Assembly: GCA_944371605.1 (NCBI GenBank)
Contig: CALVXU010000013.1
Location: 1 to 36,086 of the forward strand
DNA: 36,086 nt
Origin: an uncultured Bacilli bacterium
Lineage (GTDB): Bacteria; Bacillota_I; Bacilli_A; RFN20; CAG-288
Reading direction: 5' to 3'
The notes beneath the pieces were generated by a model. The model worked only from the letters and a program-made list of their open reading frames with translations, ran no database searches and was not told the DNA's origin. Each line of letters opens with the position of its first letter. The first letter of the stretch is position 1. The translations under genes were made by a program, and so were the position numbers. Of the stretch, positions 12,685 through 24,414 are shown one piece after another.

Positions 12685-13911
12685 ATGAAAATTATTGAAC
12701 CAGATTCAGCATTTAAACTTTTATGTTCATTCACGTTATCTTCTACTGATCAAGAAGTTTTAAGCTTGTTATATTTGCCGATAATCAAAAGCGACGCTTT
12801 TTCGCTATACCATTATTTTTTATCTTTAAAATCAGTTGACTATTCTTATATATACCATGATGATGCGCTTAAAAATCTCGGATTTGATGAAAGCAAGTTC
12901 TTAAACGCTAGATCCGCTTTAGAAGGAATAGGTTTACTAGAAAGTTTTCGAAAAAAAGAAATAAAAGATGATAGCAAGATTTTATACTTTTACAAGTTGT
13001 TGCCACCAGCAAATCCTAAAAAGTTCTTTTCTGATGTGCTATTTACTAATCTGTTATCTTCATTAATAGGAAAAAAGCGATTTTTTGAAGTCTTTAATCA
13101 TTTTAAAATCAAAGATGAATTTGATGAAAAACAATTCATCGATTATACTTCACAATTCAAAGATGTTTATTTGCATCAAATAAAATCCACTGGTGTGATT
13201 TCATCTGATGATACTGAAGAATTAGCTGATAAGGATTATAAGAAAGTGGCTGCTTTTACCAGTGAAGAACTCAAAAAAAGAATTCAGATTAATAATTATC
13301 AGTTCATAATAAGTGAAGACCTCTTAAACAAAGTGACTGATACTTGTATTTTATATGGCATTGACCTTGAAAAATGTCTTCAATTATTATCTAAAAATAC
13401 TGATTCGGACGGAAAGATATATTTTGATAGATTTGTCGATGATTGCCGATTGATCAACAATTATATAACCGAGTCTTCTGAATCGTCTAAAGAGTTATCT
13501 AATGACTCTAAAGCTAATCAGCTGATTTCGGTTTTAACAACAATAACTCCGCAATATTTTTTGCAGATTAAATTTAATATAAAAAAGTTGCCTCCATATA
13601 TTTATGAGGAAATAGAAAAGTTAAAATCAGATTTCAATCTACCTAATTCACTGATTAATGTGATATTAGATTATTCGATACGCAAAACAAATAATCGATT
13701 TAATAGTTTATTCATCGACAAAGTGGCTTTGACGATTAAAAGTGCAAAAATCGTAGAGCCTTATGAGGCTATGGTATTTTTAAATTCTTCTGATTTTAAT
13801 GCTATAAAAAAGAAGAGAACCAAAAGTGTGTCTAAGAAAAAACTTTCCGAAAACGAAATAGAAGTCTCTGAAAATGATATATCTGCGATTAAGGATATGA
13901 TGAATTTATGA
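12685..13911 (+). CDS. dnaB: Replication initiation/membrane attachment protein DnaB (Bacillus type)
   Basis: Co-loader of the replicative helicase in Bacilli; this is not the helicase itself. The N-terminus resembles the DnaB N-domain (LSSTDQEVLSLLYLPIIKSDAFSLYHYFL), and the C-terminal part (about residues 280-370) resembles the DnaB/DnaD C-terminal DDBH2-like domain, with LPNSLINVILDYSIRKTNNRF. The length of 408 aa is a little less than the approximately 470 aa of the Bacillus protein. The next gene is dnaI, overlapping by 4 nt (ATGA), the order known in Bacillus. The start codon is at the predicted transcription start and no ribosome binding site is present. Confidence 0.88.
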   Translation: MKIIEPDSAFKLLCSFTLSSTDQEVLSLLYLPIIKSDAFSLYHYFLSLKSVDYSYIYHDDALKNLGFDESKFLNARSALEGIGLLESFRKKEIKDDSKILYFYKLLPPANPKKFFSDVLFTNLLSSLIGKKRFFEVFNHFKIKDEFDEKQFIDYTSQFKDVYLHQIKSTGVISSDDTEELADKDYKKVAAFTSEELKKRIQINNYQFIISEDLLNKVTDTCILYGIDLEKCLQLLSKNTDSDGKIYFDRFVDDCRLINNYITESSESSKELSNDSKANQLISVLTTITPQYFLQIKFNIKKLPPYIYEEIEKLKSDFNLPNSLINVILDYSIRKTNNRFNSLFIDKVALTIKSAKIVEPYEAMVFLNSSDFNAIKKKRTKSVSKKKLSENEIEVSENDISAIKDMMNL

Positions 13912-14864
13912 GTGAACAAATCAAGAAAGTATCTGACGTTTTCAAGTCACCTAATGTAGTTATCAATCCCATCAAACTTGAAAGACTAAAAACACAGGTT
14001 AATAAGATTTTAGATGAGAATATAGATTTGAGAATTAAATTAAACAAATTAGATCTTACTAGTGAAAATGTCGATAATAATTTAGGAAGCATTTATCAGT
14101 ATTTATGTGACAATTTAATTTGTAAAGCATGTGATAAAAATTTATTTAATTGCCCTAAAGCTGACCATTTTGGATACTATTATGAATTAGATGCTAGTGG
14201 TCAGTATCTGAAATTACATCTATCACAATGCTCTTTATTACAAAGCCAAAATAAGATTTTATCGAACCTCATCGCCTATGAGGAAAATTCGTTAAATGTT
14301 TATTTAAATTCACAAAAGCTATTGAACTTGCTCTCAAAAAAAGACAATTTATATCTTCTCAAATCGGTAGCCAAAAGTGCCGTATATATATCAAAACATT
14401 TTCCTAAACATGATTCAACAGAAAAAGGACTGGCATTATTTCAAATAAATAAGACCACATATATCAGCATGCTTTTATCTCTAGCTGCCTATTTGAATTG
14501 CCGCAAAGGCTATAAAGTAGCTTACTTAGATGCTTTTGATTTATTGCAATTGTTCACCTCAAAAAATATCGATAAGCAGGAATTAGGAGCTAATTTACTT
14601 AATAAGGCGAGTAATGCTAATACTTTAATTTTGTCTAACTTAGATCAAATACCTAGATATCTAAGGGAAGTCATCGATAATTATTTATTTCCTTTATTGA
14701 GCAATCGTAATAAGGTCAATAAAATCACCTATATCGATTTGGGTAAATATAATAGCTCAACCGCTCTATTTAAGCACTTGTTTTTTCATTCAACTCATTT
14801 GAATGAAGTTTTAAAACTAGTTGACGAACTATTTGATGATTACATTATAAATGATTTGTCATAA
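13908..14864 (+). CDS. dnaI: DnaI-like helicase loader with degenerate ATPase motifs
   Basis: In Bacilli, DnaI is an AAA+ protein that loads the replicative helicase. The N-terminal half keeps the coiled helix and the zinc-binding pattern: Cys67, Cys72, Cys75, Cys82 and Cys108 in a layout similar to the family C-x2-C-x6-C plus a distal Cys. The C-terminal AAA+ region is recognisable but apparently inactive. The P-loop position KGLALFQINKTTYIS (from residue 173) lacks the GxxGxGK glycines, and the Walker B position TLILSNLDQIP (239-249) has Ser-Asn where Asp-Asp/Glu is expected. The length of 318 aa is normal and the reading frame is intact, so this is a preserved gene rather than debris. It is the second gene of a dnaB-dnaI pair and has a weak ribosome binding site within the dnaB end. 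Confidence 0.8.
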   Translation: MSEQIKKVSDVFKSPNVVINPIKLERLKTQVNKILDENIDLRIKLNKLDLTSENVDNNLGSIYQYLCDNLICKACDKNLFNCPKADHFGYYYELDASGQYLKLHLSQCSLLQSQNKILSNLIAYEENSLNVYLNSQKLLNLLSKKDNLYLLKSVAKSAVYISKHFPKHDSTEKGLALFQINKTTYISMLLSLAAYLNCRKGYKVAYLDAFDLLQLFTSKNIDKQELGANLLNKASNANTLILSNLDQIPRYLREVIDNYLFPLLSNRNKVNKITYIDLGKYNSSTALFKHLFFHSTHLNEVLKLVDELFDDYIINDLS

Positions 14865-14915
14865 TTGCTGAATATTTCCTTCATTTGTTATCAATAATAG
14901 ATGGAGGATTATATC

Positions 14916-16172
14916 ATGGTTTATCAAAGTGATTCGTCTGATTGTGGAAAAGCATGTGTTAGAGATATCGTCTCTATTCAATTTGAAGATGAAATATATC
15001 ACCATCAACCATTAAAGAATTCGTGTTCATCATTTTTAGAAATGCGAGAAAGCCTATGTTTGAATGGATTAGTTTATGCTTCATACCAAATTGATGATTT
15101 GGACGCGATTAATAAAAAGCAATTACCTGCTATTGCCCAGGTGAAATATGGTGAAATTTATCATTTTGTGGTTATCAAAAAAATAAGCAAAAATAGTTTG
15201 TTGCTTGATGATCCAAGCTTTGGTGAATATGAAATTCCTAAAGAAGAATTCTTGTTGATTTTTACACATAAAGCGATGCTTTATGAAGATAAATCACACC
15301 CACCAGTTAAAGATAAGATTAATATTTTCCCTCTTTGGAGCAAAATAATCTATTTTATGCTTTTCCTCTTTGAGTCTTTAAGCTTTTTCTTTTGTTTATA
15401 TTTTATAAATCAAGAAGATGCATTATTTTTCTCCATCATTTCAGGTTTTTTAGCGCTGATATTGATTTTTTGTCAAATCATCCTCAGCAAGAAAATACGA
15501 AAACAGTTTGATCGAGATATCTTCATTCCGTATTTGAAGCATACAAGATCTAAGGATGATGGACTAGCTTTGTCAAAATACCTTGATTCATTATTGAGTA
15601 AGGCGAACAGATTTGTGTCCTATGGCGTTCTAGCCGTCTTAGGATGCTTGATACTGACTAGCAATGGGTTTTATTTTGCAATGATGAGTGTACTAGCAAT
15701 CTTAGTCGGAATTTTAGAGATAACTTTTAAAAGGATGAGAAATTATGTCAATCATTATTGTTCGATTAAAGAGAGTTATTTTTTTGATTCTTTCAAATCT
15801 AATAACGCGATATCAACTAAAGATTATTTTGCTTCCGAAAGAAAAGCCAATAAGTTTGCTATCTCATATTTAGGACTGAAAATATTAGAAATTCTTTTCT
15901 TCTCATTATTAGTGTATATTTATATGTCATTGATCAATTTTTACGCTATTAACTTCTTTTTGTTCAACGTTGTTCTTTTAACTACTATTCAACAAACCAC
16001 AAATAAGTTAGTCACTTCTTATTTAGATGATTCAGAGGAAACGATATATTTAAATAAATTAAGTGTTCCGATAAATTGTTTTATGCTTAAGAATAATCTT
16101 ACTTTGGGCTATACTAATAATACTGGAGGCAGTAAAAATGAAAAAGCCCATACATCAGATAGATTATCTTGA
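14916..16172 (+). CDS. C39 peptidase-membrane protein without an ABC ATPase domain
   Basis: The N-terminal 125 residues form a C39 (bacteriocin-leader) peptidase domain: Gln4 and catalytic Cys10 in QSDSSDCGKACV, His83 in HFVVI and Asp99 in DDPSFGEY, the expected set. Six hydrophobic segments follow at about 144-164, 170-190, 233-249, 252-271, 318-338 and 342-360, the layout of an ABC exporter membrane domain. In complete C39 exporters an ATPase domain of over 200 aa comes next. Here the protein ends about 58 residues after the last segment, shortly after NNLTLGYTNN, which looks like the first strand of such a domain. GGAGG at 14903-14907 is 8 nt before the ATG at 14916; an ATG at 14901 is disfavoured. 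The tail overlaps ybeY-cdd by 35 nt. No substrate peptide or separate ATPase gene is nearby. Confidence 0.8.
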   Translation: MVYQSDSSDCGKACVRDIVSIQFEDEIYHHQPLKNSCSSFLEMRESLCLNGLVYASYQIDDLDAINKKQLPAIAQVKYGEIYHFVVIKKISKNSLLLDDPSFGEYEIPKEEFLLIFTHKAMLYEDKSHPPVKDKINIFPLWSKIIYFMLFLFESLSFFFCLYFINQEDALFFSIISGFLALILIFCQIILSKKIRKQFDRDIFIPYLKHTRSKDDGLALSKYLDSLLSKANRFVSYGVLAVLGCLILTSNGFYFAMMSVLAILVGILEITFKRMRNYVNHYCSIKESYFFDSFKSNNAISTKDYFASERKANKFAISYLGLKILEILFFSLLVYIYMSLINFYAINFFLFNVVLLTTIQQTTNKLVTSYLDDSEETIYLNKLSVPINCFMLKNNLTLGYTNNTGGSKNEKAHTSDRLS

Positions 16173-16998
16173 TAAAACTCATCAAAATAAAAAACTGATT
16201 AAACTATTTCAATTGATTTTTGATTATGTTTTAGAAAAATTGGATAAGAAAGGTGATTTCGAATTATCTTTATCACTAGTCAATGCTAAAGAACAACAGG
16301 AATTGAATAATAAGTATCGCCAAATAAATCGACCTACTGATGTTTTAACTTTCCCATATGAACAGAACAATACCGATGTAATAATTGATTTAGGTTCCAT
16401 AATCATTTGTCCTGAAATCGCTAAAAAACAGGCTAAAGAGTATGATCATCCATTCGAGCGTGAATTAGCTTTTCTTTTCATCCATGGGTTGCTGCATATT
16501 TTTGGATATGACCACATCAAAGAGGATGAAGCAAAAGTGATGTATGAATTACAAAATTCATTGTTAAACAACTTACCATATGATTTTTATACCGATATGA
16601 CTAAATTAAAAAAAGAGTTGAATAAAGCTCAAAATATGAGTATTGCGAAGTATTCTCATTTTAGAGTTGGGGCAGTTGTTGTGACTAAAGACTTTAAATA
16701 TCATCTTGGCTTTAATATCGAAAATGCTTCTTATCCTGCAACTGTTTGTGCTGAACGTGTTGCTCTATTCTCTACGTATGCTCAAGGATATAAAAAAGAA
16801 GATATCGTTGCGCTAGGTTGTATTACTGATTCCAAGCATATCGGAACTTGTTGTGGTGTGTGTCGACAAGTGATGTCAGAACTGATGCCGATGCACGCTC
16901 CGGTTTATATTTATTCAGCTAATTTTAAAGAAATGCTTAGGACTACTGTCAGTGAACTTTTACCATTCGCTTTTACACCCGAGGATCTGAATAAATGA
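16138..16998 (+). CDS. ybeY-cdd: Fusion of YbeY endoribonuclease and cytidine deaminase
   Basis: Residues about 1-150 are YbeY, a metal-dependent RNase for 16S rRNA maturation and ribosome quality control: NRPTDVLTFPY and HGLLHIFGYDH, with His116, His120 and His126 as metal ligands. Residues about 155-286 are a cytidine deaminase: YSHFRVGAVV, GFNIENASYPATVCAE (Cys204, Glu206) and CCGVCRQV (Cys239, Cys242), so zinc ligands and the catalytic Glu are intact. One uninterrupted frame links both. In Bacillus the order is ybeY, dgkA, cdd, era; here dgkA is missing, ybeY and cdd are joined, and era follows with a 4-nt overlap. GGAGG 10 nt upstream supports the start at 16138, inside the preceding gene. 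A GTG or ATG near residue 154 could also give a free deaminase (inference). Confidence 0.93.
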   Translation: MKKPIHQIDYLDKTHQNKKLIKLFQLIFDYVLEKLDKKGDFELSLSLVNAKEQQELNNKYRQINRPTDVLTFPYEQNNTDVIIDLGSIIICPEIAKKQAKEYDHPFERELAFLFIHGLLHIFGYDHIKEDEAKVMYELQNSLLNNLPYDFYTDMTKLKKELNKAQNMSIAKYSHFRVGAVVVTKDFKYHLGFNIENASYPATVCAERVALFSTYAQGYKKEDIVALGCITDSKHIGTCCGVCRQVMSELMPMHAPVYIYSANFKEMLRTTVSELLPFAFTPEDLNK

Positions 16999-22228: not shown

Positions 22229-22555
22229 ATGGATAAATTAGAAATTTTACGCAAAGAAATTGATAAATTTGTAGAAGAAAGAGATTGGAAAAAGTTTCAT
22301 TCTCCCGCAAACTTAGCAAAATCTATCTCGATTGAATCAAATGAACTTTTAGAATGTTTTCAATGGGATGAACAAAATTATGACTTGAATGCAGTTAAAG
22401 AAGAGCTTGCCGATGTCATAAACTATTGCATACAAATGTCACAAGTATTAAATCTAGATATTTTTGAAATTGTATTAGACAAATTAGAGAAAACAAAAGT
22501 TAAGTATCCCATCGATAAATGTAAATCCAAAGCGACAAAGTATAATAAATTATGA
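22229..22555 (+). CDS. MazG-like nucleotide pyrophosphohydrolase (RS21-C6 type)
   Basis: A 108-aa helical enzyme of the all-alpha NTP pyrophosphatase superfamily, which cleaves (d)NTPs to (d)NMP and pyrophosphate. The RDWKKFHSPANLAKSISIESNELLECFQW block matches the RS21-C6/MazG-like group closely. The metal ligands are Glu36 and Glu39 in SIESNELLE, and Glu59 and Asp62 in EELADVINY. It has no second MazG repeat and is of the short type. Its stop overlaps the following DUF2075 gene by ATGA. Ile codons are largely ATT and ATA, unlike ATC-rich neighbours such as glyS, suggesting acquisition from elsewhere. It could be housecleaning or nucleotide depletion; the substrate is unknown. Confidence 0.86.
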   Translation: MDKLEILRKEIDKFVEERDWKKFHSPANLAKSISIESNELLECFQWDEQNYDLNAVKEELADVINYCIQMSQVLNLDIFEIVLDKLEKTKVKYPIDKCKSKATKYNKL

Positions 22556-24414
22556 TTGTTTATTCAGGTAATATTAATAATTTCCACCAAGATGTAATAA
22601 ATGGTATTATTGCAGAACGCATCGAAGAAGGCTTTCGAAAAAATGGTATAAATCACAATAATCCACGCGAGCACCGTGCATTCGCTAACTCATTACCTCA
22701 AATCGATTCTATTTTTGATCCTGCGTTTGGAATCAATCGTGATTTGAATATAGCAATAGAATTTCAAATCCCATTAACCTCTAAACGAGTGGACTTCATC
22801 ATATCTGGAAAAGATAACAACGATAATCGAAATGCAATTATTATTGAATTAAAGCAATGGGAAGATATTGAATTAAGTAATAAACAAGATATTGTTATAA
22901 CTTTTATTGCCGGAGCTCTTAGAGAAGAAATACATCCATCGTATCAAGCTTATAGCTATGCTAAAACGATTGAAAATTTCAATCAATTTGTCCAAGAAGG
23001 TAATATTCATGTTATCCCATGTGCTTTTTTACACAATTTCATAGAGTCAAATCGAAGCAAAATTGAAGATATAAGATATGTAGATATCATTCATGAAGCC
23101 CCTATATTTTTGCAAGCTGACAGAAAAAAATTGGCTGAATTTATCAAAAAGTATGTCACTAAGGCGGATGATGGTGAGATATTATATGAAATTGAAAATG
23201 GTAGAATTAGACCGTCATTGTCGTTGCAAGATGAACTTGAAAAGATGATTAAAGGCAATGATTCTTTTGAGTTGCTTGATGAACAAAAGATAGCTTATGA
23301 AACAATTTTAGAAATATTAAATGAGAGCTTAAAAGACAACACAAAACATACTTTAGTAGTTCAAGGCGGACCTGGTACTGGCAAATCTGTGATTGCAATA
23401 AAAATTTTAGCAAAGTTAATAAGAAAAGGTTTTAATGTCGTATATACTTCTAAAAACCAAGCGCCACGCGAAGTTTACTATAAAAAACTTTCAAATGGTG
23501 ATTATAAAAAGAGCTATATTAAAAATCTATTTAAGGGCAGTGGAGCATTTGTTAATTCGACATCTAATGAATTTGATTGCATATTAGCAGATGAAGCACA
23601 TAGATTAAATGAAAAATCTGGCTTATACTCTAATTTAGGTGTGAATCAAATTAAAGAAATTATTAATGCCTCGAAAATAAGCGTCTTTTTTATCGATGAG
23701 GATCAAAGGATATCTTCAAAAGACATAGGTTCTATTGAAGAAATATCAAAATGGGCTAACTTGCTAAATTCAAAAATTCACCTTGGAAATAATTTAAAAT
23801 TGTCATCACAATTCAGATGTAATGGAAGCGATGCTTATTTAGCTTTTTTAGATAATTTATTAGAAATTAGAGAAACTGCAAACACTTCACTAGATAATAT
23901 AAATTATGATATCAAAGTATTTGATAATCCAAAATTGATGATGGATGAGTTGAGAGATAAAAATGCTGTTAACAATAAGACAAGGGTTTTGGCTGGATAT
24001 TGCTATGATTGGATTAGCAAAAAAGATAAAACGAAATTCGATATTATAATTGGCGATGATTTTAAAGCTCAATGGAATTTTAGTAATACTACAACTTGGG
24101 CAATTGATGAAGATTCTTTTGAACAAGTCGGATGCATTCATACGTGTCAAGGCTTAGAATTTGATTATGTTGGAGTGATTATTGGAAAAGATTTAATTTT
24201 TAGAAATGGGAAAATTCAAACTGATATAAAAGCTAGGGCTTCAACTGATAAGTCTTTGTCGGGTTTTAAAAATAATCCAAAGCATGCTAAAGATTGTGAA
24301 ACCATTATTAAAAATACTTATAGAACTTTATTATCTCGTGGTCAAAAAGGATGCTACATTTATTGTGAGGATTATGCATTAAGTAAACATATAAAAGAAA
24401 TGTTAAATAGATGA
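22552..24414 (+). CDS. DUF2075 nuclease-helicase
   Basis: A 620-aa protein of the DUF2075 family. The N-terminal part (about residues 1-210) has a PD-(D/E)XK-like pattern: Asp in SKRVDFIIS (about residue 80) and Glu-x-Lys in IIIELKQW (about residues 97-104), then a conserved HPSYQAYSYA. The C-terminal part is a superfamily 1-like NTPase: Walker A GGPGTGKSVIA (near 273), Walker B LADEAHRLNEKSG (near 345), a QFRCNGSD motif near 425, and HTCQGLEFDYVGVIIG (near 530), resembling motif V. All motifs are intact. No transmembrane segment. It is coupled to the mazG-like gene by ATGA. A nuclease attached to an NTP-driven motor fits nucleic-acid restriction or RNA processing; the actual target is unknown. 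Confidence 0.85.
   Translation: MIVYSGNINNFHQDVINGIIAERIEEGFRKNGINHNNPREHRAFANSLPQIDSIFDPAFGINRDLNIAIEFQIPLTSKRVDFIISGKDNNDNRNAIIIELKQWEDIELSNKQDIVITFIAGALREEIHPSYQAYSYAKTIENFNQFVQEGNIHVIPCAFLHNFIESNRSKIEDIRYVDIIHEAPIFLQADRKKLAEFIKKYVTKADDGEILYEIENGRIRPSLSLQDELEKMIKGNDSFELLDEQKIAYETILEILNESLKDNTKHTLVVQGGPGTGKSVIAIKILAKLIRKGFNVVYTSKNQAPREVYYKKLSNGDYKKSYIKNLFKGSGAFVNSTSNEFDCILADEAHRLNEKSGLYSNLGVNQIKEIINASKISVFFIDEDQRISSKDIGSIEEISKWANLLNSKIHLGNNLKLSSQFRCNGSDAYLAFLDNLLEIRETANTSLDNINYDIKVFDNPKLMMDELRDKNAVNNKTRVLAGYCYDWISKKDKTKFDIIIGDDFKAQWNFSNTTTWAIDEDSFEQVGCIHTCQGLEFDYVGVIIGKDLIFRNGKIQTDIKARASTDKSLSGFKNNPKHAKDCETIIKNTYRTLLSRGQKGCYIYCEDYALSKHIKEMLNR

Follow-up and report, generated by a model that had tools for sequence, protein, structure and literature searches.

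What AAA+ helicase loaders use ATP for remains a matter of debate. ATP turnover by the loader normally helps its release and the activation of the helicase. In E. coli, DnaC carrying the K112R change loads DnaB on ssDNA in vitro as well as the wild type does, and the helicase-binding domain of DnaC on its own is about half as effective; all of the DnaC ATPase mutants activate unwinding worse than does the wild type (PMC8213410). Two arginines in Box VII of DnaC, R216 and R220, are the arginine coupler and the arginine finger, respectively, and mutation of the finger disturbs function in vivo (PMC8213410). In B. subtilis, the C-terminal tail of DnaB contacts the DnaI CTD (PMC13326638), and DnaI release has been tied to the joining of DnaG and DnaE to the helicase (PMC13220808). 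Here we describe the dnaB-dnaI locus in a window of 36,086 nucleotides from an uncultured member of the Bacilli. Its GTDB family, here called f1, consists of uncultured gut bacteria and appears to load its replicative helicase with a DnaI whose ATPase site was erased in evolution, the remainder of the protein being retained.

The dnaB-dnaI locus

The dnaI gene is an ORF of 318 codons with an ATG start and an intact frame, and its first 4 nt are also the last 4 nt of the upstream dnaB-type gene. The features of the two genes are as follows.

12685-13911, + strand: dnaB-type helicase-loading gene, adjoining dnaI (PF07261, 3e-05; NF053829, 8.7e-28)
13864-13908, + strand: C-terminal tail of DnaB, ending in ISAIKDMMNL, a putative DnaI-binding peptide (tail common in the order)
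13908-14864, + strand: dnaI orthologue without AAA+ ATPase motifs, 318 aa (ORF, DnaI_N/2k7r match, AlphaFold, Foldseek)
13965-14252, + strand: N-terminal zinc domain of the helicase-binding type, residues 20-115 (phmmer to 2k7r; NF006505)
14121-14231, + strand: conserved zinc-ligand cysteines C72, C75, C82 and C108 (alignments)
14442-14465, + strand: former Walker A (P-loop) site, reading QINKTTYI, residues 179-186 (family alignment, regex test)
14622-14651, + strand: former Walker B site, reading TLILSNLDQI (alignment)
14706-14708, + strand: R267, a conserved arginine preceding the sensor-1 strand, kept in 20/21 f1 members
14790-14837, + strand: former Box VII region, in which the equivalents of the DnaC coupler and finger arginines (R216/R220) are both missing

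The intact frame and preserved operon reported in the first-pass annotation were borne out by the ORF, by the overlap and by the f1 genomes, where dnaB adjoins dnaI at all 21 loci and the dnaI frame is unbroken in all 21 sequences found. The same adjacency was seen at nearly all of the loci examined in the order. Most of the DnaB proteins of the order, that of the window included, end in a short acidic-hydrophobic C-terminal tail.

Other genes of the window were also noted. Directly 3' to dnaI, the 423-aa product of 14901-16172 has a C39 peptidase domain and an apparently membrane-spanning region; it resembles the leading part of an ABC transporter of the bacteriocin type, and no ATPase domain was detected in it. 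A single ORF at 16138-16998, just 5' to era, is a fusion of endoribonuclease YbeY (PF02130) and cytidine deaminase (PF00383). Between dnaG and the gene for the primary sigma factor, at 22229-24414, a MazG-like gene overlaps a Schlafen-group-3 helicase gene.

Identification of the protein as DnaI

Sequence searches with the window protein gave weak matches to DnaI. Pfam matched DnaI_N only weakly (E 0.19) and no AAA domain at all; the NCBIfam DnaI model PRK08939/NF006505 was matched weakly at 0.0035, below the model cut-off, and phmmer found the N-domain of B. subtilis DnaI (2k7r) weakly, at an E value of 0.049. A match to PF04997 (0.014) was judged to be due to chance. A search for related loci with the protein as query retrieved no relatives, and the 14-sequence alignment A1 contained no segment of sufficient conservation for scanning. 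Cysteines 72, 75, 82 and 108 were each found in 20/21 f1 sequences and were invariant in alignment A1. The first-pass annotation had counted Cys67 among the zinc-binding residues as well; this residue is not conserved, and the other four stand.

The structure of the protein was predicted with AlphaFold from an alignment of 50 DnaI sequences of the order and outgroups, and the resulting model had a mean pLDDT of 93.7 and a pTM of 0.87. When the model was compared with the PDB using Foldseek, the best matches were AAA+ domains of DnaI and primosome proteins: 2qgz (1.7e-07), 4m4w (3.5e-07), 2w58 (1.6e-06) and 5he8 (3.5e-06). For 2qgz and 2w58, which are isolated AAA+ domains, the target-normalised TM was 0.74-0.76. 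Matches to IstB, DnaC and DnaA followed those to DnaI. The predicted model thus contains an AAA+ fold of the initiator clade at the C-terminus, and the strand-loop-helix is kept at the former P-loop (strand 174-179, helix 185-199). Because of this predicted fold match and the dnaB-dnaI operon, the window protein is identified as the DnaI orthologue. When five members of the order were scanned with PF01695, none (0/5) reached the cut-off and only the member with intact motifs was matched at all; motif-based annotation with this model overlooks ATPase-less loaders of this kind.

Loss of the ATPase motifs

A gap-free alignment to an intact DnaI (GLYLYGSFGSGKT) placed the G-G-K-T of the P-loop at Q179, T184, Y185 and I186 of the window protein, and the Walker B acids at S243 and N244. 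The loss of the P-loop glycines (ALFQINKTT, residues 176-184) and the replacement of the Walker B acids by Ser-Asn (ILSNLDQ, residues 241-247), both proposed in the first-pass annotation, were thereby confirmed. The KT of INKTT was considered as a remnant of a shifted P-loop and rejected, since it lacks the glycines and is present only in the window's genome (G000) and its nearest relative (G012). A functional P-loop elsewhere in the protein had been named as a finding that would speak against the loss; no [AG]x4GK[ST] was found at any position in the 21 f1 sequences.

Throughout f1 the column of the Walker lysine is occupied by P, S, E, I, D or a gap, and the first Walker B Asp is retained in only 4/21 sequences. 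In genus g1, 11/14 sequences have [ND]-x-[DNE]-x-x-P in place of the DDxGxE of intact DnaI at Walker B. Most f1 sequences also lack the ISM lysine that corresponds to the ssDNA-contact residue K143. R267 is also found in every intact DnaI of the dataset. Judged from these alignments, the joint loss of the P-loop, Walker B, the Box VII arginines and the ISM lysine amounts to a coherent removal of the entire ATPase apparatus.

Distribution of the loss in the order

Whole-genome searches and locus retrieval yielded 140 distinct DnaI sequences. The f1 sample comprised 23 genomes, 61-94% complete, and 21 of these had a DnaI match; the two without a match are 75% and 61% complete. Even with arginine accepted in place of lysine ([AG]x4G[KR][ST]), no P-loop pattern was present anywhere in the 21 f1 proteins. 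Whether the loss is clade-wide had been raised at the outset: the P-loop is absent from 21/21 f1 DnaIs, and f1 forms a single clade (SH-aLRT 97) when the Walker A, Walker B and Box VII columns are excluded from the tree, so that one P-loop loss at the base of f1 suffices. Since the loss is common to 21 species-level genomes, it is not the product of chance or sequencing error.

Outside f1, a canonical Walker A was found in all DnaIs of f2 (3/3), f3 (16/16), f4 (4/4) and f6 (1/1), and in 44 of the 67 from f5; in the latter family the Walker A lysine has been replaced by arginine in 15 and the motif lost in 8. The single DnaI of f8 has lost Walker A. A canonical Walker A is likewise present in each of the 20 true outgroup DnaIs, which come from Erysipelothrix, Longibaculum, Acholeplasma-like and other records; named outgroups were gathered through ThrS. 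Examples of the K-to-R form in f5, GxxxxGR[ST], are L228, L142, L174, L204 and L223; the named L040, L041 and L048 have it too. The same change in E. coli DnaC abolishes ATPase activity; in these DnaIs it is natural. Genus g9 of f5 (G026, G065 and G124) is a separate clade (SH-aLRT 99) in which the P-loop was lost independently. Its DnaIs (L014, L143 and L145) read GASNNRKIQ or GGASKRKLD at the P-loop, and the first Walker B Asp is also replaced. The fewest changes on the tree were 6 for the lost state and 10 for the K-to-R state, counted on a quick tree with several long branches and unreliable inner joins. Within f1, the tree has very long terminal branches.

The Box VII arginines show a different distribution. 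In column counts from one alignment, in which f4 is possibly shifted by one residue, the finger of the R-x3-R pair was found in 19/20 outgroup sequences and its coupler in 18/20; the finger was found in 0/21 f1 sequences, from which the coupler is absent too, and was missing from all 83 sequences of f3 and f5, two large sister families. As most of these 83 sequences keep the P-loop, the finger seems to have been lost before it. We incline to the view that f1 and, independently, at least a few other lineages of the order load the helicase with an ATP-free DnaI, reached stepwise through loss of Box VII, then a K-to-R change in the P-loop and then loss of all the motifs.

Constraint on the altered protein

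When G000 was compared with G012, substitutions in DnaI were mainly synonymous (pN 0.21, pS 0.71), and the former AAA part (pN 0.18, pS 0.77) was no less constrained than the N-domain; pS is near saturation in this pair, and dN/dS is therefore not quoted. The pattern is one of purifying selection and upholds the earlier claim that the protein is under use. DnaI nevertheless evolves fast, as its identity between these two genomes is 65% versus 95% for DnaA and 73.5% for DnaB. Genus-wide, conservation of the AAA-like part is lower than that of the N-domain (0.23 versus 0.30), which suggests that part of the AAA-like domain is under relaxed constraint; the reverse pattern, with the N-domain the less conserved, was seen in f3, f5_g24, f5_g30 and f5_g27. 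The genus-wide values are in keeping with an old active site that is less constrained than before, in a fold that is retained.

Search for other loaders

The first-pass annotation had also asked for a second, intact DnaI or DnaC gene, and none was found in the window's genome or in 22 f1 relatives, all of them draft genomes. None of the 23 f1 genomes contained a further zinc-domain match of the DnaI type. PF01695 (IstB/DnaC) matched one DnaA-sized protein in most of these genomes, IS21 IstB genes and short remnants; the full-length IS21 IstB genes adjoin an IstA-like transposase gene. An IstB-like match on G000:C31 was rejected as a loader, being a frame of 77 aa that we read as a remnant, and a short extra match in G003 proved to be an IS21 IstB beside IstA. 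IS21-type elements with IstA-like genes and an IstB with an intact P-loop are present in G003, G013, G020 and G006 (L230-L233), and IS21 remnants on G000:C31 (L018) and in G015. No match to DciA (PF05258) was found in the window's genome, which is 89.9% complete, and none above cut-off in the 23 f1 genomes, where there was one sub-threshold match; half of 14 control genomes match this model. An intact loader may lie in an assembly gap of any single draft genome, but it is unlikely that one is hidden in this way across all 23.

Other replication proteins of the window's genome have their motifs intact, namely DnaA (GLGKT, VDDIQ and RLVSRF) and the P-loop of the replicative helicase (SVGKT). C30 encodes a DnaB_2 protein of the size of DnaD. 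As dnaB, dnaG and dnaA occur too, the set of genes for the start of replication is not obviously smaller, although the first-pass annotation proposed a simplified primosome.

Proposed mechanism and alternatives

We consider it probable that the window gene is the DnaI of f1 and that its AAA+ domain is a pseudo-ATPase that works in three steps. The zinc N-domain would bind the replicative helicase and hold or open the helicase ring. The C-terminal domain, its AAA+ fold kept, would neither bind nor hydrolyse ATP, and would act as an adaptor, docking on the DnaB tail and so delivering the helicase to the DnaA-DnaD-DnaB complex that forms at the origin. Primase binding, together with ATP hydrolysis by the helicase itself, would then bring about the release of DnaI and the activation of the helicase. 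Binding of the helicase and of DnaB by the window DnaI, and helicase loading independent of ATP, are what we infer from its domains, locus and altered motifs, and a nucleotide-free AAA+ adaptor on DnaB with a zinc domain handling the helicase would be the most economical model. Since mutation of the finger is harmful to DnaC in vivo, compensation must exist in f1.

The persistence of a constrained gene bears on whether dnaI could instead be a decaying vestige, with loading taken over by DnaB, DnaD and DnaA or by spontaneous ring assembly. The very long f1 end branches and the low genus-wide identity of the AAA-like part would be expected of such decay, but the frame is intact in 21/21 sequences with four zinc ligands kept, the G000-G012 changes are mainly synonymous even in the former AAA part, and the operon is maintained; we think this quite unlikely. 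Even less can be said for a gap in the genomes, in which an intact loader lies unsequenced or on a mobile element and the window gene is an accessory paralogue. The f1 genomes are indeed only 61-94% complete, and 4/23 carry an IS21 IstB with an intact P-loop, yet 0/23 have a second zinc-domain DnaI-like match, the extra match in G003 is itself such an IstB, and it is the altered gene that occupies the standard dnaB-dnaI locus, leaving this explanation the faintest of chances.

Two other alternatives keep ATP in the reaction. Clamp loaders and ORC contain pseudo-ATPase subunits beside active ones, and by analogy with such mixtures the ATP might be used by a partner, DnaI being mixed with DnaA, which retains an intact P-loop, Walker B and Box VII, or with some other undetected AAA+ protein. 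We regard this as unlikely, because the DnaI finger arginines able to act on a partner's site have been lost as well, and in B. subtilis, DnaI and DnaA are reported to have no interaction (PMC13220808). Nucleotide might also still be bound by a non-canonical loop and so work as a switch in the absence of normal Walker motifs; the retained strand-loop-helix layout and the predicted model as a whole are compatible with ligand binding. The loop residues vary in f1, however, as the Walker lysine column illustrates, and no conserved substitute motif is found at the former P-loop, which makes such binding highly improbable.

Comparison with known loading systems

The window DnaI is like the DnaI of Bacillus, Geobacillus and Staphylococcus (2w58, 4m4w, 5he8, 2k7r) in its domain order, zinc N-domain, predicted AAA+ fold and operon with dnaB, but unlike them it is without Walker A, the Walker B acids, the Box VII arginines and the ISM lysine. 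As loaders without ATP turnover that load in vitro, the E. coli DnaC K112R and R220D proteins and the isolated helicase-binding domain (PMC8213410) would be close functional parallels; these are laboratory-made and weak in helicase activation, whereas the motif loss in f1 is natural, complete and fixed in the family. DciA would be alike in loading without a loader ATPase but has an unrelated fold. In clamp-loader delta and in ORC subunits, the ATP site has been lost and the AAA+ fold remains as a scaffold; these non-catalytic subunits work beside active ATPases, whereas an active DnaI subunit was not found in f1. ATP-free loading by DciA and pseudo-ATPase AAA+ subunits elsewhere are already known. 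An earlier report of an ATPase-less DnaI was not met with in the literature searched, the coverage of which was partial, and within that coverage what seems new is an apparently sole, family-wide DnaI without ATPase motifs. If the proposed mechanism is true, ATP turnover by the loader is dispensable in nature and other partners drive the release of helicase and loader from one another. Family f1 is then a natural experiment on the purpose of ATP use by helicase loaders, and its DnaIs, together with the intermediate forms of the sister lineages, make up a natural series of proteins with which the ATP requirement and its compensation can be probed.
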